IMG/VR virus record: IMGVR_UViG_3300020392_000070
Location: 1 to 26,125 of that record
Source of the DNA: a virus
Reading direction: 5' to 3' (one strand)
DNA: 26,125 nt
A program made the position numbers and the translations under genes. Below are positions 8,532 through 26,125 of this stretch, in pieces; positions within the stretch are counted from its first letter, which is position 1, and the number at the start of each line of letters is the position of its first letter. The notes under the pieces are model-generated. The model was not told where the DNA came from and did not search any database. It worked only from the letters and a program-made list of their open reading frames with translations.

Positions 8532-9302
8532 ATGGCAAAAAGAAAATTTAGAATTGATACTGGTTATTACGGTGGTGAATGTGTAATAGGTGAAGTTTCA
8601 AATGAGTTTGTAACTAAAACTGTAGATATGGACCCAAGCGAATTAGTTGACACAGTTTTATCATTTGATAACTGGGGCGGTGACGAAGACCTCGACGAGA
8701 ATGCAGAGCACGATGATCCAGAACAAATTCCTGCTCCTAGAGATGATTATTACATGTGGGAATGCGACGACATAGAGCATATTAATAGTGCATACGGTGA
8801 TTCCGAATTTACTGTTTACGAAGTTCCAGCAGATGGCTCAGATGATTATGACCATGAAAACGAAGTTGGTACTTTTGCTGGTATTCATATGTATGGCAGA
8901 GAAGGCGGATACTTTGGTCAAGAAGCACCTGATATGATTTGCCAAGAGGATAGCGAAGGAAATATGTATGTGCCTGTGTTAGCATTTCACAGTTGTGAGA
9001 AAGGCACCTTTGCTAGTTACTTTGTAGAAACAGATGGAGAAGACTTTGATAGATACAAATTAGGCATGGGTATTGTAGAAACAAACCTAGGAGAATTTAT
9101 TGATAAAGTGTACTATAACAAGGTCGAACTTGATGCAGAATACGACTATAATGATACTACCGGTAAAAGTTATCATGCAGAAGTTGGCTGGTTAAATAAG
9201 AAGTGGCATGACTCAGAAGCAGATTTTGATGAACTCGACGAAGACTTTTTACTAGAGTTTGATGAAAATGTTAAGTGGGAAAAAGAGCAAAACGAGGTAT
9301 AA
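8532..9302 (+). CDS. Highly acidic protein, 256 aa, unknown
   Basis: The function is not recognised. By my count Asp plus Glu make up about 27% of residues, in clusters such as GGDEDLDENAEHDDPEQ and DSEADFDELDEDFLLEFDEN. The N-terminus (MAKRKFRIDTGYYGGECVIGEV) is ordered and slightly basic, and a Gly-rich central part (GTFAGIHMYGREGGYFGQE) suggests a folded beta domain. AAGGAG 5 nt before ATG gives strong translation. The stop overlaps the next ATG (TAATG at 9300-9304). Such acidity in an early phage protein could mean a DNA mimic or host-enzyme inhibitor, but that is speculation. Confidence 0.75.
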   Translation: MAKRKFRIDTGYYGGECVIGEVSNEFVTKTVDMDPSELVDTVLSFDNWGGDEDLDENAEHDDPEQIPAPRDDYYMWECDDIEHINSAYGDSEFTVYEVPADGSDDYDHENEVGTFAGIHMYGREGGYFGQEAPDMICQEDSEGNMYVPVLAFHSCEKGTFASYFVETDGEDFDRYKLGMGIVETNLGEFIDKVYYNKVELDAEYDYNDTTGKSYHAEVGWLNKKWHDSEADFDELDEDFLLEFDENVKWEKEQNEV

Positions 9303-10078
9303 TGAGAGTATTAATATTTGGATTGCCAGGAAGTGGCAAAACATATTTGGCAGAACGTTTAGTTGAATACTTAGGTGACAAAGTTGCCTGGTTCAACGCA
9401 GATAAAGTTAGAGAAGAAGCAGACGATTGGGACTTCTCTGAAGAAGGTAGATTAAGACAAAATCAACGCATGATTGATTTGTGTATAAATGCTGAATTGG
9501 AAGGCAAAATAGCAATAGCAGATTTTGTAGCACCATTTGAAAGTGCTAGAAATAAATTCTTTGCTGACTATGAAATATTCGTAGACACAATAGAAGCAGG
9601 TAGATTTGAAGATACTAACAAAGTATTTGAAAGACCAATGGCAACAGATTACAACGTTCGCGAACAACGTGGCGATGTAGATGCTAAAATAATTGCTTAT
9701 GAACTTGGACAAAGATTTATATGGGATAACCAAGCACCTACTACACAAATGCTTGGAAGATTTCAACCTTGGCACCCAGGACACCAAGCACTATTTGATA
9801 GAGCATTGGCAAAACACGGACAAGTGTTTTTAATGGTGAGAGAGATGCCAACAGATGAAAAGAATCCTTTTCCAGTACATGAAGTTGTAGAAAACTTACA
9901 ACAAAGTTTACACAAATTTGCTGGCAAGGTAAAAATACAAGTTGTACCTAACTTGTTAAACATAACGTATGGTAGAGATGTTGGATATAAAATTGAGCAA
10001 GAAGTTTTTGACGATACTATACACGATATCAGTGCTACTAAAATACGTGAACAAATGAGAGAAGAAGGAAAATTATAA
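9302..10078 (+). CDS. Bifunctional APS-kinase-like / nucleotidyltransferase fusion
   Basis: 258 aa from ATG 9302 (start MRVLIFGLPG). An in-frame ATG at 9275 would add nine poorly conserved residues inside the upstream gene. N-terminal domain (1-~135): P-loop kinase with Walker A GLPGSGKT (7-14). FNADKVRE (31-38), DFSEEGRLRQNQRMIDLC (44-61) and ADFVAPFESAR (73-83) follow the adenylylsulfate (APS) kinase pattern. C-terminal domain (~148-258): HxGH-type nucleotidyltransferase with GRFQPWHPGHQALF (152-165) and ISATKIRE (243-250). It is nearer in size and motif to NadM/cytidylyltransferase-type enzymes than to full ATP sulfurylase. The kinase-then-adenylyltransferase order resembles animal PAPS synthetase. 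The substrate is unproven: PAPS synthesis, NAD metabolism or activation of a sugar/alcohol all fit. Confidence 0.8.
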   Translation: MRVLIFGLPGSGKTYLAERLVEYLGDKVAWFNADKVREEADDWDFSEEGRLRQNQRMIDLCINAELEGKIAIADFVAPFESARNKFFADYEIFVDTIEAGRFEDTNKVFERPMATDYNVREQRGDVDAKIIAYELGQRFIWDNQAPTTQMLGRFQPWHPGHQALFDRALAKHGQVFLMVREMPTDEKNPFPVHEVVENLQQSLHKFAGKVKIQVVPNLLNITYGRDVGYKIEQEVFDDTIHDISATKIREQMREEGKL

Positions 10079-10535: not shown

Positions 10536-11639
10536 ATGACATATCAATTTACAAGTGAAAGTGTTTCAGAAGGACACCCTGATAAAATATCCGATCTAAT
10601 ATCTGATAGAGTTGCAGACTATATACTTGCTGGTAATGACTCACATAGAGCGGCAGTTGAAACATTAGTTACAACAAATATGGTTACAATAGCAGGAGAG
10701 TATAAAAGTACTGTACCAATTAATAAAGAACACATTGAAGAAATTGTAAGAGGTGTGGTTAGAGAAATTGGATATGAGCAGGAAGGCTTTCACTGGGAAC
10801 ATCTAAAAGTGTATAACGAACTGCATGGACAAAGTCCAGACATAGCATTGGGCACTGATAACTTTGGTGCAGGAGACCAAGGACTCATGTTTGGTTATGC
10901 CTGCAAAGAAACACCAACGTATATGCCTAGTGCAATATATTATAGCCATAAAATTTTACAGTACCTTGCAAGTGAAAGACGTATATCCTATTCTTGGTTA
11001 GGACCTGATAGCAAATCACAGGTTACAATGGAATATGATAGTGTTAATAATCCAGTAAGAGTCAGTAAAGTAGTCTGTAGCAGTCAGCATACAGAAGAGT
11101 TTACATTAGACGCAGTCAAAGATGGCATAAAAGAATTAGTGATCAAAGCATTAGAAGAATCAGATGCACCTATTGATGATGATACCGAATATTTAATTAA
11201 CCCTACAGGCAAATTTGTAATAGGAGGACCTGATGGAGATACAGGACTTACTGGAAGAAAAATTATTGTTGATACTTATGGTGGGTATGCTCCACATGGC
11301 GGTGGTGCTTTTTCAGGTAAAGATTGCACTAAGGTCGACAGATCAGCGGCATATATGGCACGATATTTGGCAAAGAACGTTGTAGCATCAGGCCAAGCAG
11401 ATAATTGTACAGTACAACTAAGTTATGCTATTGGTGTAAAAGAACCAACTAGTGTTTATGTTTATGCTGACGGTGAAGTTAGAGCCGACATAGCAGATAT
11501 ATTAAGAGATAGAGTTGACTTAACTCCAAAAGGCATAATAGACAAATTCGATTTATTTAATATACAACTTTCAGATACAACAAACTATGGTCACTTTGGT
11601 AAAACTCTTTTACCATGGGAACAAGTTGATCTGTTTTAA
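10536..11639 (+). CDS. metK: S-adenosylmethionine synthetase
   Basis: Makes S-adenosylmethionine from methionine and ATP in the cytoplasm. The 367-aa sequence is close to full length (E. coli MetK 384) and appears intact. It begins FTSESVSEGHPDKISDLISD (residues 5-24), with the ATP-binding GHPDK, then has GTDNFGAGDQGLMFGYA (106-122) and the signature GGPDGDTGLTGRKIIVDTYG, then GGYAPHGGGAFSGKDCTKVDRS (249-270). All main catalytic blocks are present, so activity is likely. It is phage-encoded, inside an early-type operon, and the stop overlaps the next start (TAATG). Likely roles are supplying SAM for phage DNA or protein methylation or for polyamine synthesis; no methyltransferase is visible in this window. 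Confidence 0.95.
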   Translation: MTYQFTSESVSEGHPDKISDLISDRVADYILAGNDSHRAAVETLVTTNMVTIAGEYKSTVPINKEHIEEIVRGVVREIGYEQEGFHWEHLKVYNELHGQSPDIALGTDNFGAGDQGLMFGYACKETPTYMPSAIYYSHKILQYLASERRISYSWLGPDSKSQVTMEYDSVNNPVRVSKVVCSSQHTEEFTLDAVKDGIKELVIKALEESDAPIDDDTEYLINPTGKFVIGGPDGDTGLTGRKIIVDTYGGYAPHGGGAFSGKDCTKVDRSAAYMARYLAKNVVASGQADNCTVQLSYAIGVKEPTSVYVYADGEVRADIADILRDRVDLTPKGIIDKFDLFNIQLSDTTNYGHFGKTLLPWEQVDLF

Positions 11640-12004
11640 TGTTTACAGTTTACAGAATAGATTTTCCAGACGGTAAAGTTTATTTTGGATATACTGCAAA
11701 GCCTTTAACATTAAGACTTGAAGAACATATAGAAAGCAGTCAAGTAGGCAAATCCCCTCTTTATAAAGCAATCAGAATGTGTGAATACAAATGCGTAGGA
11801 AGAGAAGTAAATAAATTTCATACAATGGAAGAAGCATTAGACTGGGAAAAGAAATTAATAAAAAGAACACCTAAAGAAAAACGTCTTAATGTAAGTTGGG
11901 GAGGAGAAAATGGCGAAAACAATAAAAGAAGGTGGGCACAACAAGATATAATTAAAAAACATTATAAAAAGAAAAATAGGAAGGCAAAATACAAATATGG
12001 TTGA
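11639..12004 (+). CDS. GIY-YIG nuclease-like small protein
   Basis: 121 aa, starting MFTVYRIDFPDGKVYFGYTA. The pattern VYRIDFPDGKVYFGYT followed by LTLRLEEHI matches the GIY-YIG fold core (GIY...YIG, then Arg and His on the next helix) in degenerate form. LDWEKKLIKRTPKEKRLNVSWGG fits the later Glu-containing helix and N/G-rich end. The C-terminus is extremely basic (NNKRRWAQQDIIKKHYKKKN). It could be a free-standing homing-type nuclease (T4 seg-like) or a repair/restriction nuclease. There is no intron nearby and the operon is not disrupted. It overlaps both neighbours slightly (metK and apt). Confidence 0.6.
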   Translation: MFTVYRIDFPDGKVYFGYTAKPLTLRLEEHIESSQVGKSPLYKAIRMCEYKCVGREVNKFHTMEEALDWEKKLIKRTPKEKRLNVSWGGENGENNKRRWAQQDIIKKHYKKKNRKAKYKYG

Positions 12005-12533
12005 TATAAAAAACAGCATACGAACAGTACCCGACTTTCCTATTGAAGGAATACAGTTTCGAGATATTACTGGATTATTAGAAGACACAGAAGCATTTAA
12101 TAAATGTTTAATAGATCTTACAGCAGAAATAATGTTGTTTAAAGGAGATGTAATTGTAGGAATAGAAAGCAGAGGCTTTTTATTTGGAACTCCATTAGCA
12201 AGAGATATTGAGATACCATTTGTGTTAGCAAGGAAGCCAGGCAAATTACCAAATAAAACTGTTAGTAAAAAATATGATTTAGAGTATGGAAAAGCAGAAT
12301 TGCAAATACAATTACTTTCCCCAATAAACGGAAAAGTAATTATTATTGACGACTTAATTGCAACAGGAGGCACCGCTTTGGCATGTGCAAACCTTATACA
12401 CGAAAATTGGAATATACCTAAAGAAGATATATTAATTCTGGCAGTAATAGACTTGCCCAATTTGGGCGGTTCTGCTATAATACAAGACAACGGTTATAAT
12501 GTAAGAACATTGGTAGAATTTGATGGCGAGTAA
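11997..12533 (+). CDS. apt: Adenine phosphoribosyltransferase
   Basis: 178 aa, the normal Apt length. It converts adenine plus PRPP to AMP. Visible motifs are the N-terminal IRTVPDFPIEGIQFRDIT (8-25), typical of Apt, GIESRGFLFG (55-64), and the PRPP-binding VIIIDDLIATGGTA (114-127). It overlaps the GIY-YIG-like gene by 8 nt and the next gene by 11 nt, so it is co-transcribed with metK. Together these suggest adenine salvage linked to SAM use, since SAH and methylthioadenosine breakdown release adenine. The link is inference. Confidence 0.92.
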   Translation: MVDIKNSIRTVPDFPIEGIQFRDITGLLEDTEAFNKCLIDLTAEIMLFKGDVIVGIESRGFLFGTPLARDIEIPFVLARKPGKLPNKTVSKKYDLEYGKAELQIQLLSPINGKVIIIDDLIATGGTALACANLIHENWNIPKEDILILAVIDLPNLGGSAIIQDNGYNVRTLVEFDGE

Positions 12534-13843: not shown

Positions 13844-14096
13844 ACAACAGGAAATGCTGGTTATAACAATGGAGGAGTGTGCAGAACTCAGCCAGGCTTG
13901 TAGTAAACTTATACGTTTTGAAGACGAACGTACACAAGAAGACATTGCAAATTTACAGGACGAGGCTGGCGATTTGATTTGTATGTTAGAAATTTTAAAA
14001 GAAAACAATCTTTTGACAGATGATAAAATACAAGAACGTGTACAAGTTAAAAGAAATAAATTAAAAAAGTGGAGCAATTTATTCAATGAAGATTGA
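13836..14096 (+). CDS. MazG-like nucleotide pyrophosphohydrolase 2
   Basis: 86 aa from ATG 13836 (MNKQQEMLVITMEECAEL). A second in-frame ATG at 13854 is possible, and a longer upstream frame from 13773 would run inside the preceding gene. The metal-binding motif is clear: MEECAELSQ (12-20; E13, E14, E17), then QDEAGDLICML (41-51; E43, D46). The C-terminus is basic. It differs in sequence from the MazG-like protein at 10078. Members cleave NTPs to NMPs; in phages they are linked to nucleotide-pool or (p)ppGpp control. ATG of the next gene overlaps its end by 11 nt. Confidence 0.8.
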   Translation: MNKQQEMLVITMEECAELSQACSKLIRFEDERTQEDIANLQDEAGDLICMLEILKENNLLTDDKIQERVQVKRNKLKKWSNLFNED

Positions 14097-14661
14097 CTTT
14101 GATGTTGATATTGACATGGCAGACAGAACAAAATTGCTGTCTGTGTTGAATAATATTACAGGTAGTATCAAACGTCCAGGTGGCATGGAAAAACACAACA
14201 CAGGCGTTTATATACAGCCTATACCCCATGATCCTGTAACAGGCCTTAGTAACATTGATCACAAAGAAGCAGATGATTTAGGTTACTTTAAATTAGATGT
14301 TCTTAACAATAGTGTGTATAACAATATTGAAAGTGAGCAAGAATTAAATAATTTATGTAAGCAGGAACCAGTGTGGGAACTACTAAGTGCTAAAGAAATA
14401 GTAGAACAACTGTTTCATATTAATAATCATTATGACATTATAGAACAACATAAACCAACTAACATAGATCAATTAGCGATGATACTTGCAATGATAAGAC
14501 CAGGTAAGAGATATTTGGTTGGAAAAAGTTGGGAAGAAATTGAAAAGGATGTTTGGAAAAAACCAGATAATGATACATATTTTTTCAAGAAGTCACATGC
14601 GTATAGTTACGCAATGGCTATAATTGTTCAGTTAAATAAGTTAGTCAGCCTTCTTGACTAA
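14086..14661 (+). CDS. Miniature DnaE (DNA polymerase III alpha)-like protein
   Basis: 191 aa. Segments match the bacterial DnaE palm/fingers in order. IDFDVDIDMADRTKLL (3-18) resembles the DFDVDF catalytic block; KHNTGVYIQP (36-45) the KHAGGVVI block; GYFKLDVLNNSVYNNI (67-81) the KFDFLGL block with the third catalytic Asp (here D71). NIDQLAMILAMIRPGK (126-141) resembles the IALVALFRPGP block, and FFKKSHAYSYAMAII (166-180) the FNKSHSAAYAL block. The PHP domain, most fingers/thumb and all C-terminal domains are absent, so this is a minimal relic about one-sixth the size of DnaE. The Asp triad is retained. Whether it polymerises is unknown. It ends in a palindrome shared with the opposing gene. 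Confidence 0.65.
   Translation: MKIDFDVDIDMADRTKLLSVLNNITGSIKRPGGMEKHNTGVYIQPIPHDPVTGLSNIDHKEADDLGYFKLDVLNNSVYNNIESEQELNNLCKQEPVWELLSAKEIVEQLFHINNHYDIIEQHKPTNIDQLAMILAMIRPGKRYLVGKSWEEIEKDVWKKPDNDTYFFKKSHAYSYAMAIIVQLNKLVSLLD
14641..14661. terminator. Palindrome carrying both convergent stop codons
   Basis: TTAGTCA (14641-14647), 7-nt spacer and TGACTAA (14655-14661) form a perfect 7-bp stem. The TAA of the plus gene (14659-14661) and the TAA of the minus gene (complement of 14641-14643) lie at its two ends, so both genes end on the same stem. There is no long T-run, so this may be a weak bidirectional terminator or a 3'-end stabiliser. Confidence 0.4.
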
Positions 14662-16438: not shown

Positions 16439-17428
16439 ATGGAACAGTCTGACGCAATACAACAAGTACATGAGTTGCTGACAACTCATATGCCTCCTAA
16501 AAACAGGAAGACTCCTGCTGGGTGGGTAACATTTGATTGTCCTATGTGCAATGACAAAAGAGGCAGAGCAGGTGTAATTGCAACAGGTCCTAAGATTGCA
16601 TACAACTGTTTTAATTGTGGCTTCTCTACTGGTTGGAGTCCAAGCAAACGAATTGGTAAAAAATACAAAGACCTTGCAGTTAAATTAGGTGCAACTAATG
16701 AAAGTGTAAAGAAACTTGTATTAGAACTAATGAAAATAGAAGAATTTGATAACGTATCAGATGATATTGTAATAAGTTATGAAAAATTTAAACCAGTAGA
16801 ATTACCAAATGTTATAAATGTAAGAGATGTGCCTAAGTTAGCATACAACGAAACACACGAAAAAATAATGCTGTATGCAAAAGAAAGAAAATTACTAGAT
16901 ACAAACTATGACTTATTTTTATGTGATGATTTTATGCTTAAAAACAGACTGATCATTCCTTTCTACTACAACCAAGAAGTAGTTGGTTATGTAGGCAGGC
17001 ATATAAATCCACCTACAAAAGAAACACCTAAATACATAAACAATAGTCAAGCAGGATATGTGTTTAACATAGACAAATACATATACTCAGATAGAGATAT
17101 TGTAGTAGTAACAGAAGGTGTAATTGATGCTATACTTATAGATGGTATAAGTGTGCTAGGTAATGCAATGAATGAAAGACAGATACAACAGATAAATTCG
17201 TTAAATAAAAGAGTAATACTTTGTCCTGACAGAGATGCACCAGGCAAAGAATTGATAAGGCAGGCCGCTGAACTAGGGTGGGAAGTAAGTTTCCCGCCTT
17301 GGCACACAGATATAAAAGATGTTGGTGATGCGGTGCTCAAATATGGCAGACTTTTGACATTATCTAGTATAATTAAATATGCTGTCGCAAATAAGATAAA
17401 AATTGAAGTGCAGAGTAAAATGTTATGA
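16439..17428 (+). CDS. 61: DNA primase (gp61-like)
   Basis: 329 aa, close to T4 gp61 (342). The N-terminal zinc-binding domain has CPMC (34-37) and CFNC (57-60). It is followed by a TOPRIM catalytic core with VVVTEGVIDAIL (222-233; E226) and VILCPDRDAPGK (259-270; D264, D266). It makes RNA primers for lagging-strand synthesis and works with gp41 helicase, whose gene follows with an ATGA overlap at 17425. The nearest upstream ATG to the promoter -10 (7 nt) is used, with no Shine-Dalgarno, so initiation may be leaderless here too. Confidence 0.93.
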   Translation: MEQSDAIQQVHELLTTHMPPKNRKTPAGWVTFDCPMCNDKRGRAGVIATGPKIAYNCFNCGFSTGWSPSKRIGKKYKDLAVKLGATNESVKKLVLELMKIEEFDNVSDDIVISYEKFKPVELPNVINVRDVPKLAYNETHEKIMLYAKERKLLDTNYDLFLCDDFMLKNRLIIPFYYNQEVVGYVGRHINPPTKETPKYINNSQAGYVFNIDKYIYSDRDIVVVTEGVIDAILIDGISVLGNAMNERQIQQINSLNKRVILCPDRDAPGKELIRQAAELGWEVSFPPWHTDIKDVGDAVLKYGRLLTLSSIIKYAVANKIKIEVQSKML

Positions 17429-18810
17429 GTGATATTAAAGATTACGGCGAAGATATACAAGAACTGTTTCTAAGATTCTTAGTTACAGACCCTGATGTGT
17501 TTGTAAGGGTAAACAATATTGTACAGCCTTATATGTTTAATAGAAAATACAGAGAAGCAGTAGAATTTTTAAAAGAACATGCAAACAAATACAACAGCAT
17601 TCCTACATTAGAACAATTAGAAGCAGTTAATGGCATTGATCTGAAGCCAGTAGAAGACGTTCATGAAAGCCATATGAATTGGTTTATGGATGAATTTGAG
17701 CAATTCTGTAAACACAAGGCCCTGGAAAAAGCAATACTTGATAGTACAGACTTATTAGAAAATCAAGACTATGGTACTGTTGAAGTAATGATTAAAGAAG
17801 CAAGTCAAGTAGGTCTTGTTAGTGATTTTGGTTTAGATTATTATGAAAATCCCAAAGAAAGATTGCAATGGATAAAAGATCAAGCAGGTGCAATTAGCAC
17901 AGGTTGGAAAAACTTTGATCAAAAACTGTATGGTGGACTTAATAGAGGGGAACTTACAGTATTTGCAGGTGGCTCTGGTGCTGGTAAAAGTTTATTCTTA
18001 CAAAACTTAGGTGTAAATTGGAGTCAAGCAGGACTTAATACAGTATATCTAAGTTTAGAGTTAAGTGAACAACTGTCAAGTATGCGTATTGATGCAATGG
18101 TCAGTGAGTATGCCACCAGAGATGTCATGAAAAACATGGATGATGTGGACTTGAAAGTGCGTATGAAAGGTAAAGGTGCTGGTAAATTCCGCATAAAACA
18201 GATGAGTAATGGCATAAATGCCAACGATATTAGGTCGTTTTTGAGGGAATATGAAATACAAACTGGTATAAAAGTAGATGCTTTATTAGTAGATTACTTA
18301 GATTTAATGAGTCCAATCAGCACTAAAGTTAGTCCAAGCGACCTGTTTATAAAAGACAAGTATGTATCTGAGGAGTTGCGTAATTTAGCAGTAGAATTAA
18401 ACATCTTATTAGTTACAGCATCGCAGTTGAACAGGGGTGCAGTTGAAGAAATAGAGTTTGATCACAGCCATATTGCAGGTGGTATTAGTAAAATACAAAC
18501 TGCTGACAATGTAATAGGTATATTCACAAGCAATGCCATGAGGGAACGTGGTAGATATCAAATACAATTTATGAAAACACGTTCTAGTAGTGGTGTAGGT
18601 AGCAAAGTAGACTTAAAATTCAATCCAGAAACACTGAGAATTGAAGATCTTGAGGAAGATGACGAGTCATATGACACTATTAATACTATCACCATGACAG
18701 AGTCCTTGAAGAGATCTTCTGCAATTCGAAGCGATGATGATGCCACAGAAGAAAATGTTGACATAGTACAGCAAGGTTTGGAACTAAGGAACCTCCTCAA
18801 GAAAAAGTAA
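17425..18810 (+). CDS. 41: Replicative DNA helicase (gp41, DnaB-like)
   Basis: 461 aa (T4 gp41 475). Hexameric 5'-3' helicase of the DnaB/RecA-like family that unwinds the fork and activates primase. The N-terminal helical domain (1-~150) is followed by the core: Walker A AGGSGAGKSL (181-190), Walker B ALLVDYLDLM (286-295), and a C-terminal TASQLNRGAVEEI with IAGGISKIQTADNVIGIF, typical of the family. The acidic C-terminus ends VQQGLELRNLLKKK. The stop is 4 bases before a late-promoter box region. Confidence 0.95.
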   Translation: MSDIKDYGEDIQELFLRFLVTDPDVFVRVNNIVQPYMFNRKYREAVEFLKEHANKYNSIPTLEQLEAVNGIDLKPVEDVHESHMNWFMDEFEQFCKHKALEKAILDSTDLLENQDYGTVEVMIKEASQVGLVSDFGLDYYENPKERLQWIKDQAGAISTGWKNFDQKLYGGLNRGELTVFAGGSGAGKSLFLQNLGVNWSQAGLNTVYLSLELSEQLSSMRIDAMVSEYATRDVMKNMDDVDLKVRMKGKGAGKFRIKQMSNGINANDIRSFLREYEIQTGIKVDALLVDYLDLMSPISTKVSPSDLFIKDKYVSEELRNLAVELNILLVTASQLNRGAVEEIEFDHSHIAGGISKIQTADNVIGIFTSNAMRERGRYQIQFMKTRSSSGVGSKVDLKFNPETLRIEDLEEDDESYDTINTITMTESLKRSSAIRSDDDATEENVDIVQQGLELRNLLKKK

Positions 18811-18840: not shown

Positions 18841-19110
18841 ATGTCCTTAAATCGCAGATCAATTTTAGATGAACTAAATTCGATAGTCTCAGATAGAGAC
18901 AAACTCAATGTTATCGAGTCTAGAGGTAACCACATTATAAAAAGTGCATTAAATTTAATTGAATTAATTCAAGAAAATTTTGATGAGCAAGAAGCATTAG
19001 ATTTGCAACGTAGGTTAATTAATTCTATAAAAGGAAATAGACCTGAAAGATTTATCAAGGGCATCAGTATCATAAAAGAATCAAGGTCTAAATCCAATGA
19101 AGATAAATGA
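18841..19110 (+). CDS. Small helical late protein, 89 aa, unknown
   Basis: Starts MSLNRRSILDELNSIVSDRD, continues IIKSALNLIELIQENFDEQEALDLQRRL, and ends in a basic/Ser-rich tail. It looks all-helical with amphipathic segments, and I recall similar short hypothetical proteins in marine T4-like phages. It has a good RBS and a late promoter. A scaffold, prohead-core or assembly function is possible from context only. It overlaps the next gene by 14 nt. Confidence 0.7.
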   Translation: MSLNRRSILDELNSIVSDRDKLNVIESRGNHIIKSALNLIELIQENFDEQEALDLQRRLINSIKGNRPERFIKGISIIKESRSKSNEDK

Positions 19111-20020
19111 AGTAGTCATTTTTGAAGTTGACGACGACACTCAAGCAAAGCGAGATGCTTTTGCTGACATGGACAACAAAAAGAAAAAGAAATTAAAATG
19201 GAACGAAATTGTTGCAAATCCGGATTTAACAGATCTTGAGTTTGATGTTGACGGCGTAGATTATAAAGGTTACATAGATAATAAAAAAAATATTTTCTTT
19301 GTTTATGACCAAGCATTAAACGACTTTGTACCAGCAGATCGCAACTTTACTAGAAGAGCATTTGGTAAAAATATATCAGCAAGAATAAAAAATCTATTAA
19401 ATTTTAAACCAGGTGGTATGGAATATATTAAAAACTTTTTTAGTTTTGATAATAGAGGCGATCCTTCTTTACCAGGTGCTGGTCAGGCCGCTAAATCTAC
19501 AAACATTGGCGGTGTTATAGGTTCGAGAGTTGGCGGACTTATAGATAGAGGTATAGCCAAATTACGTGGTAAAAAACAAGACAAAACAATGCAACAACAA
19601 ACTGCAGGAATTTGGAAAACTGTATATGGAGTAAATCCTCCAGTGGCAGGTGATATAATAAGATTTAAAACTGCAGATGGCAAAGTTGTCGATGGAGAAT
19701 TTGTTACATTAACACCAAGCAATCTTAGTGTAGATAACGACAATGACGGTGTACCAGACATTTTGGTAAAAGCACTATATAAAGATAAAGATGGTAAGCC
19801 TCTTAAGAGTCAGACTCAACATCCTGTGGCAAACACCAACATTATATCAGTAAACGGTAAGCCACTCAAAAAAATTGCGGCACCACCTGATAGACCAAAA
19901 AATCAGCCAGGTAGCGGTCAAACAGACTTAGGAGATATAGGTCTCAAACCACAACGTAGAAGCGACTTAGGTAATACTGGTACATTAGGAGGACCTGCTA
20001 GAGATCTAGGTGCTATATAA
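19097..20020 (+). CDS. Late protein with capsid-targeting-like N-terminus and Ca-loop-like motif
   Basis: 307 aa, unknown function. The N-terminus MKINEVVIFE|VDDD resembles a T4 internal-protein targeting peptide with an I-x-E site for the prohead protease (cleavage after E10). The body is charged and Gly-rich (GGVIGSRVGGLIDRGIAKLRG, residues 138-158). Residues 213-221 read DNDNDGVPD, a calcium-binding loop like those of thrombospondin type-3 or dockerin repeats. The C-terminus is Pro/Gly-rich and probably disordered. There is no good Shine-Dalgarno; its start overlaps the upstream gene, so coupling is likely. Packaging into the head is a hypothesis based on the N-terminus shared with neighbours. 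Confidence 0.7.
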   Translation: MKINEVVIFEVDDDTQAKRDAFADMDNKKKKKLKWNEIVANPDLTDLEFDVDGVDYKGYIDNKKNIFFVYDQALNDFVPADRNFTRRAFGKNISARIKNLLNFKPGGMEYIKNFFSFDNRGDPSLPGAGQAAKSTNIGGVIGSRVGGLIDRGIAKLRGKKQDKTMQQQTAGIWKTVYGVNPPVAGDIIRFKTADGKVVDGEFVTLTPSNLSVDNDNDGVPDILVKALYKDKDGKPLKSQTQHPVANTNIISVNGKPLKKIAAPPDRPKNQPGSGQTDLGDIGLKPQRRSDLGNTGTLGGPARDLGAI

Positions 20021-21288
20021 TGAAAGCAGTAGATCTTACAAAAGGATACTTGACTGAATGCACAATCTATCATAGATTGGACGAAAATAAAAATACTCAT
20101 CTAGAACACTTAGAAGATTTAATCTTCAATGACGGCTTACCTGGTGGACAACAAGCAATTAACTATCTTCACAGTTTCCATGAAATGTTAAAAGGAAGTG
20201 CTAAAACCAAATTTAATCTAACAACAAAATGGGATGGTGCACCTGCAGTATTTGTAGGTACTGATCCAGCAGACGGTAAATTTTTTGTAGGTACTAAAAG
20301 TATCTTTAACAAAAGAGACCCATTAGTAAATAAAAGCATAGAAGATATCAAAGCAAATCATGAAGCAGAAGGATTGCAAGAAAAACTAATTAGTGCATTT
20401 ACACACTTGCAAAAACTTAATTTCAAAGGCAAAGTTATACAGGGCGACTTACTATTTACAGACGACAGTATTACCGATGCAAATATCAAAGGTCAAGATT
20501 TCATTGTGTTTAAACCTAACACAATAATTTATGCTATACCAAAAGATAGTGAATTAGCAAAAAATATTTTAAGAGCCAAAATTGGTGTTGTATTTCATAC
20601 CGAATATGTAGGAGGTCCTACACTTGCAGACACAAATGCTAAATTTGGTTTTGATGCAAGTACTTTAGGCAACAATCCAGATGTATGGTATAGAGATGCT
20701 ATTATTAGAGATTATTCAGGACAAGTAACATTTACTCAAGACGAGTCCGATAAGATGTCAGAACTCATAAACAATGCAGACAGTAATTTAAAATCAGTAA
20801 AAGATTTAGACTTTCTTAAAAACAATGAATTTGGCGAGGATCTTAGAAAAAGAATTAAGACAAGTGTAAATGTGATCATGAAAGAATTAACAGGTTTTGA
20901 ACAAGATCCTAAAGTATTTGCAGAAAGATTTATTGCAGAATACAAAGGCTTTATGAAAAAAGCAATAGATAAACTTAGTAAGCCAGAAAATCAAGTTAAA
21001 AAAACACAATTAATGTTAGACGGAATAAAATTTTTAGAAGATAATCAAGAACAAATAGAAAAAGCATACATTGTATATCTAGATTTAATCAAAGCAAAAG
21101 AAATGATTATAAATAAATTAACTAACATAAAGCAAATAGACACATTTGTACAAAACGCAGAAGGTGACTATGACGTTACTGGAGAGGAAGGTTTTGTTGC
21201 TGTGGATCGCATAGGCAACGCAATAAAATTAGTTGATAGACTTGACTTTAGTGTTAAGAACTTTGGTACAGGGAAACCAGGAGCATAA
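20020..21288 (+). CDS. KxDG nucleotidyltransferase/ligase-like late protein
   Basis: 422 aa. The N-terminus MKAVDLTKGYLTE|C looks like a capsid-targeting peptide (L-T-E at 11-13). NTHLEHLEDLIFNDGLPGGQ (25-44) follows. The core motif is KWDGAPAVFVG (70-80), matching motif I (KxDG) of the DNA/RNA ligase and capping nucleotidyltransferase superfamily, with K70 as candidate adenylation lysine. FFVGTKSIFNK (88-98) is next. Then KVIQGDLLFTD fits motif III (GE, here GD) and GQDFIVFKPNTIIYAIP motif IV. The C-terminal third is helical. It is probably the DUF6267-type family seen in marine T4-like phages (from memory). Enzyme activity and in-virion location are inference. Stop overlaps the next start (TAATG). 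Confidence 0.7.
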   Translation: MKAVDLTKGYLTECTIYHRLDENKNTHLEHLEDLIFNDGLPGGQQAINYLHSFHEMLKGSAKTKFNLTTKWDGAPAVFVGTDPADGKFFVGTKSIFNKRDPLVNKSIEDIKANHEAEGLQEKLISAFTHLQKLNFKGKVIQGDLLFTDDSITDANIKGQDFIVFKPNTIIYAIPKDSELAKNILRAKIGVVFHTEYVGGPTLADTNAKFGFDASTLGNNPDVWYRDAIIRDYSGQVTFTQDESDKMSELINNADSNLKSVKDLDFLKNNEFGEDLRKRIKTSVNVIMKELTGFEQDPKVFAERFIAEYKGFMKKAIDKLSKPENQVKKTQLMLDGIKFLEDNQEQIEKAYIVYLDLIKAKEMIINKLTNIKQIDTFVQNAEGDYDVTGEEGFVAVDRIGNAIKLVDRLDFSVKNFGTGKPGA

Positions 21289-22063: not shown

Positions 22064-22651
22064 ATGCGAATAGACGAAGTAATAGTAAAAGAAATAAGCC
22101 AGCAACAGCAAGATGCTTTAAAGCAGATGCGTGATATTCACGTGCAACGTAGAATGAAAGGCATTGGTACAGATACCAGTACTTACGGTTCGCAAATTGG
22201 ACAATCTGTTGGTACAGATGTGGAAGTAGGCGACTTAACCAACGTTGCTAGAGCAGGAACAAAAGATACTGACATTGCAAAACAGGATACTAATAAAAAA
22301 TCAGATGGCAAAAAAGACACAAGTAAACAGGCCACTGACGTAACTCCGACTTCTGCACAATTGAGAAGAGATGCTCAAACTCAAACATTAAGAGGTAAAA
22401 GCAGAGGCATGGCAAGAAGCGATGAGCCAGGTGGTGGTAGAGTTGGTGCTGATGGTAGAAAATTAAAACATCAAAGATATTATTCAGATCAACCATCCGA
22501 TTTACAAGATTATGATTCTATTATACCCGATTTTATCAATCTAAACAAAATGGGCAAAACTGCTAAAAAATATGCATCTAATTTTGTCCGAGACCCTTCA
22601 AAAACTATGGCGGACCTACGTTATAAATTCAAAGATTTACTTCAAAAGTAA
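22064..22651 (+). CDS. Hydrophilic, probably disordered late protein (195 aa)
   Basis: N-terminus MRIDEVIVKE|ISQQQQDALK is close to that of the 19097 protein (MKINEVVIFE) and looks like a capsid-targeting peptide. The middle (~45-130) is low-complexity, with Gly, Thr, Asp, Lys and Gln (GTDTSTYGSQIGQSVGTDV and similar), ending with Arg/Gly-rich sequence. The C-terminus is basic and helical (KTAKKYASNFVRDPSKTMAD). The late box at 22051 sits 5 nt before ATG with no RBS. Unknown function; a DNA-associated internal head protein is plausible. Confidence 0.65.
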   Translation: MRIDEVIVKEISQQQQDALKQMRDIHVQRRMKGIGTDTSTYGSQIGQSVGTDVEVGDLTNVARAGTKDTDIAKQDTNKKSDGKKDTSKQATDVTPTSAQLRRDAQTQTLRGKSRGMARSDEPGGGRVGADGRKLKHQRYYSDQPSDLQDYDSIIPDFINLNKMGKTAKKYASNFVRDPSKTMADLRYKFKDLLQK

Positions 22652-23582: not shown

Positions 23583-23610
23583 AAACCCCCTTTTCGAAGG
23601 GGGTTTTTTT
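23583..23610 (+). terminator. Strong terminator with TTCG tetraloop after cassette 2
   Basis: CCCCCTT (23586-23592), loop TTCG and AAGGGGG (23597-23603), followed by seven T (23604-23610). A-U pairs can extend the stem. The UUCG loop is a stable tetraloop sequence (here closed by U-A rather than the most stable C-G). Confidence 0.92.
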
Positions 23611-24331: not shown

Positions 24332-24610
24332 ATGAGAATAGTTGAAGTAGAAGGAGTAATGGAGGCCAAAATGGTCTGGGCAAAGCGAGGCAAGAAGATT
24401 GTCCGTAAAGTCAGATGCACAAGTGGCCCACGTAAAGGCAGAATGGTGTCTAACGCCGGCCAATGCTCTAAACCTATCAACTTAAAAAAACGTATGACGC
24501 TCAAAAAAACAAGAGCAAGAATGGGTAGAAGGATGGCTAGAAAAGCCGCTAGAACCAAAAGAAGAAATCCGGTGAGTAAAAGAGTTGCAAGGTTGAATAG
24601 AAGACGATGA
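24332..24610 (+). CDS. Very basic Arg/Lys-rich late protein (92 aa)
   Basis: N-terminus MRIVEVEGVME|AKMVWAKRG has the same style as MRIDEV.../MKINEV..., with V-M-E then A as a candidate prohead-protease site. The remainder is strongly cationic: KKIVRKVRCTSGPRKGRMVS with two Cys (in RCTSG and GQCSK), then LKKRMTLKKTRARMGRRMAR and ending LNRRR. Such a charge implies binding to packaged DNA, like an internal head or histone-like protein. I recall similar basic proteins in marine T4-like phages. ATGA overlap with the next gene (24607-24610). Confidence 0.75.
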   Translation: MRIVEVEGVMEAKMVWAKRGKKIVRKVRCTSGPRKGRMVSNAGQCSKPINLKKRMTLKKTRARMGRRMARKAARTKRRNPVSKRVARLNRRR

Positions 24611-26125
24611 AGTTAAAAGACCTATACGAATATAATAAAGGAATACAAGATCCTAATTCTAATGCAAGTCAGTCTAAAGACGATGATGCAATGGAGCCAA
24701 TGACTCCTGAAGAAGAAAGAGAAGCGAAGAAAAGTATAAAGCAATTCAAAATTGCAGGTATAAATGTTACTAACCCTAACATGATGGCAAAAGGCTTATC
24801 AAATGTTACCCAAGGTAAGAAACAAACTCCACAACAAGTAAAACAAGCCGATCCTGTTTCTGGTGTACTTGCAAAAATAATATCTAAAAAAGAAAACAAA
24901 CCTTTAAAAATGAGGTTGATGAACATATTCAAACAAGTTCAACAAGGCGATTTAGAAGAAAGTACATTAGCAAAAAAAATATTAAGAAAACTAACAGGTA
25001 AAAAGCCATTAACAAAAATTAAAAAAAGATCCAAACTGCTTAAAGAAGCAGATCCTTTACTATTTGAAATCAACTTTAATCAACGTAGTGTAGCACAGGA
25101 GGCTCTACAGGCTGATATTAGATGTGGTTTTGAGGCAGAAACATTTTGGTTTAGAGCAGAAGGTGGCGGAAGAGTCGACGATATAGACAATATGAGTGTT
25201 GGTGACGTTGAATACGAATACGGTGATTTACCAGATCAAGCATATTCAGATTATAACGATTGGGTTATGGAAAAGGGCATAGACGAATATTTGCCAGACA
25301 TCATAGCCAATTGGGTAGAAGAAAACAGAGACGAAGATTGGGCAATACAAGATTTTATGAGTTCAGACACCGCTCCTACAGATGAAGCGGTAGAAGAATA
25401 TAGAGATGAATTTAAAGAACAAGACCCAACTGAATATGAAAATCGTGAAGAAGACGGTTGGGATATAGACAACTGGACTAGAGATCTAATCAACACAGAA
25501 TACGAATCAGAATATGTAGACTTTCTTTATGACGTAGGGCAGGAAGAAGATCAATTAAGAGATGATGCTGTGGCAGAAGCCGAATCCGATTACTCAATGG
25601 ACGAATGGATTAGTAATGATTGGTACAGTATGAGTTCATTCTTAGATGATTATGGCTATGATTATCCTACTGAAGGAGGCGGAGTTGATGATGTAGCAGA
25701 CATTTTTAATCAGTGGATCAAAAACGACAGTATGTTTAAAGGATATCCTGAAACTGGTGAGTATGGAGAAACTGGAACAACAGATGGCTGGGCAGTTGAA
25801 ACTGATAGTAGTATTGATCCAGATGAAGGTGCAGGTGCTGAACTTATATCACCTGTATATGATACACCAGCAGATATGTTAAAAGATATGAAAAGTCTTT
25901 TTGATTGGAATGATCAAGAAGAAGAGTTTGGCACAAACAATTCAACAGGATTACATGTTACTATGAGTTGGCAAGGCGAAGGTCGAGATGAACCAAACAA
26001 ATTAAAAATGGCACTTCTTGTAGGCGACCAATACTTACTTGGTGAATTTGATAGACTCAAAAATAGTTATACTAAAAGCCAATACAACATATTACTTAAA
26101 TCTGCAGAGGGTATGAAAAGAGGCG
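24607..26125 (+). CDS. Amidoligase-like late protein (partial, runs off right edge)
   Basis: Open from ATG 24607 to the window end (506 codons, no stop). The N-terminus MKLKDLYE|YNKG may be another capsid-targeting peptide (L-Y-E). Residues 1-~150 are basic and probably disordered. Then come amidoligase (glutamine-synthetase-like COOH-NH2 ligase) motifs: CGFEAETFWF (173-182), WAVETDSSI (395-403), AELISPVYDT (411-420) and NSTGLHVTMSW (445-455). In the family these read roughly FGVEIE...W.V..DSS....ELVSP....STGLHVHV. Between the first two lies an acidic insertion of about 215 residues, rich in Asp, Glu, Trp and Tyr. Amidoligases join a carboxylate to an amine using ATP. The substrate is unknown. 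Confidence 0.75.
   Translation, partial: MKLKDLYEYNKGIQDPNSNASQSKDDDAMEPMTPEEEREAKKSIKQFKIAGINVTNPNMMAKGLSNVTQGKKQTPQQVKQADPVSGVLAKIISKKENKPLKMRLMNIFKQVQQGDLEESTLAKKILRKLTGKKPLTKIKKRSKLLKEADPLLFEINFNQRSVAQEALQADIRCGFEAETFWFRAEGGGRVDDIDNMSVGDVEYEYGDLPDQAYSDYNDWVMEKGIDEYLPDIIANWVEENRDEDWAIQDFMSSDTAPTDEAVEEYRDEFKEQDPTEYENREEDGWDIDNWTRDLINTEYESEYVDFLYDVGQEEDQLRDDAVAEAESDYSMDEWISNDWYSMSSFLDDYGYDYPTEGGGVDDVADIFNQWIKNDSMFKGYPETGEYGETGTTDGWAVETDSSIDPDEGAGAELISPVYDTPADMLKDMKSLFDWNDQEEEFGTNNSTGLHVTMSWQGEGRDEPNKLKMALLVGDQYLLGEFDRLKNSYTKSQYNILLKSAEGMKRG

Follow-up and report, generated by a model that had tools for sequence, protein, structure and literature searches.

The stretch of DNA analysed here (the window; 26,125 nucleotides, IMG/VR record IMGVR_UViG_3300020392_000070) is a 26 kb virus fragment of a T4-like phage. 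The open reading frame under study was confirmed at the position given in Table 1; it has the start MKAVDLTKGYLTEC and contains the segment KWDGAPAVFVG with Lys70 (K70). The reading frame is real and is under purifying selection (dN/dS ∼0.08 among close relatives in viral contigs). Its product is a full-length member of DUF6267 (PF19782, phrog_455); the families under these names carry no assigned function, and the ligase reading is new here. No paper was found in the literature on DUF6267, PF19782 or phrog_455, NCBIfam and PADLOC searches yielded nothing useful, and a BFVD structure search gave significant E-values only for DUF6267 relatives.

DUF6267 was found by tblastn in ∼470 phage records, chiefly of Synechococcus and Prochlorococcus phages; cyanophage records name it 'T4-LIKE GC: 71' (syn9 gp183). 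Carriers that are not cyanophages were pelagiphage HTVC008M, Methylophilales phage Melnitz and Stenotrophomonas phage DLP6. No cyanophage or pelagiphage genome examined lacked the gene, and marine T4-like phages rank with the most abundant viruses. Almost all matches in the genome collection came from marine MAG contigs, which are probably viral, and for this reason no cellular DUF6267 family is claimed. One homologue comes from the assembly of the isolate Nonlabens xiamenensis 1Q3, where its contig of 188 kb is perhaps a co-sequenced phage.

A primase/DnaB-helicase pair lies 1.2 kb upstream of the gene, and SSB, UvsX, UvsY, a UvsW-type helicase and MazG are also encoded upstream in the window; relatives of the gene are placed downstream of gp43–uvsX–gp41. 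An earlier reading made from the sequence alone had assigned it to a late operon, apart from the replication genes, which finds no support: both here and in relatives the gene stands in the replication region. No transcription class can be assigned because a promoter scan of the window gave counts equal to those of shuffled sequences. Elsewhere in the window, a complete S-adenosylmethionine synthetase is encoded at 10536–11639 (three Pfam domains, E down to 5e-56; of unknown function according to PHROGs), an APS-kinase-like P-loop domain fused with a cytidylyltransferase-like domain at 9275–10078, and, at 11639–12533, a GIY-YIG nuclease-domain protein with a phosphoribosyltransferase after it. 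A 191-residue protein (14086–14661) matches a PHROG family labelled DNA polymerase, and none of the window ORFs scanned was recognised as a full-length DNA polymerase.

Table 1. Features of the DUF6267 gene and its upstream neighbours in the window (motifs and leader as predicted; the slash marks putative cleavage).
Feature	Position	Strand	Basis
Primase, upstream	16439–17428	+	phrog_47, E 1.7e-40
DnaB-type helicase, upstream	17425–18810	+	phrog_19, E 3.2e-75
Upstream neighbour of unknown function, leader MKINEVVIFE of window-lineage type	19097–20020	+	N-terminal leader comparison
DUF6267 protein, predicted ligase-type nucleotidyltransferase, 422 residues	20020–21288	+	PF19782, E 2.9e-100; phrog_455, E 3.4e-92
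Leader M1–E13 (MKAVDLTKGYLTE/C), candidate capsid-targeting peptide	20020–20058	+	Comparison with T4 IPII/IPIII leader and relatives
Conserved N-terminal stretch H27-LEH-LED33, ahead of long helix	20098–20118	+	N25, H27, H30, E32 invariant
Motif I, K70-W-D72-G73, predicted nucleotidyl acceptor lysine	20227–20238	+	Invariant in 59/59 and in short forms
Candidate motif Ia, T92-K93-S-I-F96	20293–20307	+	K93 invariant
Candidate motif III, Q141-G142-D143	20440–20448	+	Invariant in long set; D143 invariant throughout; strand 139–147
Candidate motif IIIa, H193-T194-E-Y196	20596–20607	+	H193 and T194 invariant throughout; strand 188–197
Helical insertion, residues ∼228–370, between motifs IIIa and IV, shorter in cyanophage forms	20701–21129	+	Secondary structure and alignment
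Motif IV, E390-G391-F-V393	21187–21198	+	58/58; local profile match to T4 Rnl1 motif IV
Motif V, K403-L-V-D406-R407	21226–21240	+	K403 and R407 in 58/58; strand 401–405

Residue conservation was read from a long set of 59 relatives (37–85% identity to the window protein), 58 of which extend to E390–R407. K70, D72, G73, P75, K93 and Q141-G142-D143 are invariant in all 59, as are P166-N167, H193-T194, Y196, N284 and K360, and E390, G391, V393, K403 and R407 are present in each of the 58 that reach this far. Natural forms of 290–320 residues, which have a reduced helical part and 27–33% identity, keep K70, D72, G73, K93 and D143 and likewise H193-T194, E390-G-x-V, K403 and R407. The assignment of KWDGAPAVFVG to motif I of the covalent nucleotidyltransferases, made in the sequence-only reading, is therefore borne out by the invariance of K70, D72 and G73 in the long set and the short forms, and Lys70, the conservation of which had been proposed as a check, varies in none of these homologues. 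The placement of motif III at a Gly-Asp pair is plausible in that D143 is invariant and lies in the right strand, but G142 is replaced by Ala in some short forms; ligases usually have Glu at this motif, whereas DUF6267 has Asp. FIVFKP had been taken as motif IV and was rejected: P166-N167 is invariant in the long set, yet the segment lies ahead of the H193-T-x-Y strand, and E390-G-x-V and K403, each present in 58/58, are the better candidates for motifs IV and V, as which EEGFVAVDRIGNAIKLVDR near the C-terminus is read. H193-T-x-Y196 stands, as judged from the alignment and the modelled strand, at the place expected for motif IIIa, the motif whose aromatic residue packs on the base, and is a candidate for it. 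Motif V is followed by only ∼15 residues forming one helix, and the AlphaFold model contains no C-terminal OB-fold with motif VI.

AlphaFold models were obtained for the window protein (pLDDT 85.2, pTM 0.82) and for a natural 298-residue form (pLDDT 90.3, pTM 0.85). In both models K70 ends a strand, D143 and H193 lie in strands, and E390 and K403 lie in two consecutive C-terminal strands. Comparison of the long model by VIA-align gave NgrRnl, the nick-sealing RNA ligase of Naegleria gruberi, as the closest structural match (5cou, 6vt1; Z 9.0, 3.9 Å over 186 residues), followed by TbREL1 (8.2), T4 Rnl1 (7.7), Trl1 (7.7) and T4 Rnl2 (7.6), with DNA ligases at Z 6.0–6.5; scores of 8–9 are close to the level commonly seen with VIA-align. 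With the short model, all 50 rows were ligases, NgrRnl again being the best match (Z 8.3). Foldseek gave no E-value below 0.001 with either model; the long model returned mostly noise, probably owing to the helical insertion, which is why the natural short form was folded instead, and with this form 46 of the top 50 rows were DNA or RNA ligases or capping enzymes (best E-value 0.07). By residue counting over the VIA-align ranges, not by superposition, K70 is 50 residues from the range start, the same as K99 of T4 Rnl1, and E390 and K403 are 26 and 13 residues before the range end, compared with 27 and 13 for E312 and K326 of NgrRnl (Lys and Glu positions in the known enzymes were taken from mutants named in PDB titles). 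Ligases top every VIA list, in keeping with a predicted nucleotidyltransferase fold, at single scores that are modest (Z ≤ 9.0); what carries the case is that these scores and the invariant residues agree. The fold comparison called for by the sequence-only reading puts the protein closest to RNA ligases and so leaves the ligase interpretation unrefuted.

At the sequence level the relationship is faint. When the PDB was searched by HMM, the single sequence and the family profile alike returned noise only, largely coiled coils, and hhalign against Rnl1, Rnl2 and gp30 profiles detected no global homology; the one meaningful local match placed EEGFVAVDRIGNAIKL on IEGYVAVMKDGSHFKI of Rnl1, corresponding to motifs IV–V (pair P 0.03). 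The window protein did not match the Rnl1 (PF09511) and Rnl2 (PF09414) HMMs at E-values up to 1, these two families were absent among those listed for the 59 relatives, and the HMM of ATP-dependent DNA ligases of the gp30 type (PF01068) did not recognise the window protein. NgrRnl shares 13–14% identity with DUF6267, has an N-terminal domain ahead of the nucleotidyltransferase core and lacks a large helical insertion, which DUF6267 has. Motifs IV–V align locally with those of T4 Rnl1 (rnlA), although the profile comparison is not significant, and the start KYSSLEN of T4 Rnl2 (rnlB) is loosely like KNTHLEH of DUF6267; neither T4 enzyme has a C-terminal domain in common with the family. The likeness to the T4 gp30-type DNA ligase is one of fold at the superfamily level and possibly of biological job, whereas the PF01068 match, the OB-fold domain and the N-terminal DNA-binding domain are missing from DUF6267. 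A survey of jumbo phages (PMC7824862) names Rnl1, Rnl2 and rare divergent ligases and, in the portion of it consulted, contains nothing pointing to DUF6267.

The invariant residues and the predicted fold together give good support to the superfamily assignment of the sequence-only reading, and DUF6267 is very likely to be a new family in the covalent nucleotidyltransferase superfamily. It is predicted, with fair confidence, to be a polynucleotide ligase, probably of a new ligase family because the fold scores are modest and profile comparison detects no global sequence homology. On balance, we favour an unrecognised minimal ligase-type covalent nucleotidyltransferase that seals the nucleic acid of the phage itself, a share of it probably being packed into the head in lineages whose leader is T4-like. 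In the mechanism proposed, K70 would attack ATP to give lysyl-AMP in a nucleotide pocket shaped by E390, K403, D143 and K93; the AMP would be handed to a 5′-phosphate end, after which the 3′-OH would close the break. The predicted architecture is a nucleotidyltransferase core in which motifs IIIa and IV are separated by a helical insertion that varies between lineages, with no OB-fold after motif V. A minimal ligase of this kind, of which a short form exists in nature, would also be interesting as a reagent.

The most likely job of such an enzyme would be the closing of breaks in the phage's own nucleic acid, and for marine T4-like phages in which the searches showed no other ligase, the best guess is that it acts on DNA nicks and Okazaki fragments; DNA nick sealing is accordingly our first choice of substrate. 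A 2010 review (PMC2984593) stated that homologues of the T4 g30 DNA ligase were not found in cyanomyoviruses, either because distant ones had gone unidentified or because they are absent, and preferred the second view, with the ligase of the host taking over. On the question left there, whether the DNA ligase is absent or unrecognised, DUF6267 offers a concrete candidate. When 18 genomes with DUF6267 were searched, 16 had no match to PF01068, PF09414, PF09511 or PF01653, and 17 had none to the two RNA ligase HMMs (PF09511 and PF09414); in controls, T4 gave the expected matches for PF01068, PF09414 and PF09511, and cellular genomes for PF01653. A tblastn search with T4 gp30 yielded 2520 phage records, among which Synechococcus fell outside the ten commonest names (the tenth having 53 records), compared with 371 Synechococcus records with DUF6267. 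Phage DLP6, which has gp30, and contig G003 carry DUF6267 together with a DNA ligase, so that the protein cannot be only a substitute ligase.

RNA repair is a real alternative because the predicted fold is nearest to RNA ligases and the OB-fold domain is missing. The protein would then re-join RNA, such as tRNA, cut by host defence nucleases, in the manner of T4 Rnl1 and Rnl2, rather than seal DNA nicks; the top structural matches are all RNA ligases, motif V is followed by no OB domain, and T4 itself has separate RNA ligases for tRNA repair. We nevertheless consider this rather unlikely, as the PF09414 and PF09511 HMMs fail to recognise DUF6267, the gene stands among replication genes, and neither a polynucleotide kinase nor a 3′ phosphatase was found beside it in the loci read.

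Lysyl-AMP chemistry might also serve a non-joining purpose, namely capping or adenylylation of an end or of a small molecule, perhaps together with an HxGH cytidylyltransferase that is adjoining or fused. In S-PM2 (L020:6016-7791) a cytidylyltransferase-like domain (CTP_transf_like, PF01467) follows DUF6267 at the C-terminus of one fused protein, a cytidylyltransferase gene is next to or near DUF6267 in S-SZBM1, P-HM2, Syn33, Melnitz and DLP6, and capping enzymes occur among the Foldseek rows; the VIA comparison, however, puts RNA ligases above capping enzymes, and such a role appears improbable.

The favoured ligase reading includes delivery from the head in some lineages, a proposal that stems from the N-terminus. 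Capsid-targeted internal proteins of the T4 type are characterised by an N-terminal leader, 10–19 residues long, with a gp21-type LxE/IxE site at its end. The T4 internal proteins IPII and IPIII start with MKTYQEFIAE/A; in IPIII the initial ten residues are enough to direct a protein to the head, and the prohead protease gp21 cuts the leader off (PMC9026906, PMC10229621). Many DUF6267 proteins from outside the cyanophages start similarly (MKFTEYLTEA, MKFQEFLTEA, MNFTQFLTEA, MLNYQEYLTES and the like), so that MKFTEYLTE/A and MKFQEFLTE/A resemble the T4 leader whereas the mature proteins are unrelated. A strict T4-leader-like pattern, chosen post hoc after the sequences had been seen, occurs at 16 of 60 distinct DUF6267 N-termini, compared with 15 of 678 N-termini of other ORFs and 2 of 4081 internal Met positions. 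The capsid-targeting-type N-terminus noted in the sequence-only reading is seen in part of the family; the window protein (MKAVDLTKGYLTE/C) fits a looser form only, and cyanophage copies have no leader. The lineage of the window protein keeps [FYLI][LIC]xE[ACS] near the leader end, and residues 1–22 are predicted to be poorly ordered (pLDDT < 50). A rule that the leader occurs only where gp30 is present was dropped, since contig L046 has a leader-bearing copy and no PF01068 match.

The leader pattern M[KR]xx[DE][VIL]...xE is common to the DUF6267 gene of the window and three neighbours starting at 19097, 22064 and 24332; this pattern, likewise post hoc, was counted in 33 of 320 N-termini compared with 3 of 1520 internal Met positions. 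The four genes (19097–20020, 20020–21288, 22064–22651 and 24332–24610) are apparently unrelated and have one leader type, and the leader type of these neighbouring genes changes in concert between phage lineages. The common leader is possibly a head-targeting signal, and leaders of this kind suggest that marine phages may package a set of enzymes in the head.

In the published virion proteome of Synechococcus phage S-SZBM1 (PMC9146016) the cytidylyltransferase next to DUF6267, with the leader MRFRQFIIEA, is included, whereas DUF6267 itself (SSZBM1_141, leaderless, start MAKNTHLEH) is absent. With the leader-bearing neighbour present and the leaderless protein missing, this list is consistent with the leader being a mark of packaged proteins and speaks against the leaderless cyanophage copies being packaged; for a related proteome (PMC10665884) the authors warn that enzymes of this sort might have been carried over during CsCl purification. 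Judged from these N-termini, head targeting of leader-bearing DUF6267 proteins is plausible, and where a lineage has a T4-like leader, part of the protein would probably be head-packed and delivered at infection; for the window protein, with its looser leader, packaging is conceivable but somewhat doubtful. That the protein is merely a head-packaged internal protein, structural or DNA-binding, whose enzyme core lacks catalysis would suit the T4-internal-protein-like leader of many relatives and of the neighbours and the weak sequence and Foldseek scores, and is nonetheless very improbable, given that the expected active-site residues are invariant, in the right order and strands, in leader-bearing and leaderless forms alike and that the S-SZBM1 copy is missing from the virion proteome. 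A broader scenario is unlikely in its entirety: DUF6267 would be the replicative ligase so far missing from marine T4-like phages, and several lineages would also load it into the head alongside leader-bearing enzymes encoded nearby (an NMNAT-like cytidylyltransferase and others), the whole being injected as a repair kit to seal the incoming genome.

Two further observations concern the downstream end of the window. An open-ended ORF at 24607–26124 has a weak match to a putative amidoligase (PF12224, E 1e-4), and a strong terminator-like hairpin (AAACCCCCTTTTCGAAGGGGGTTT, followed by a T run) lies at 23583–23606 between two small ORFs.
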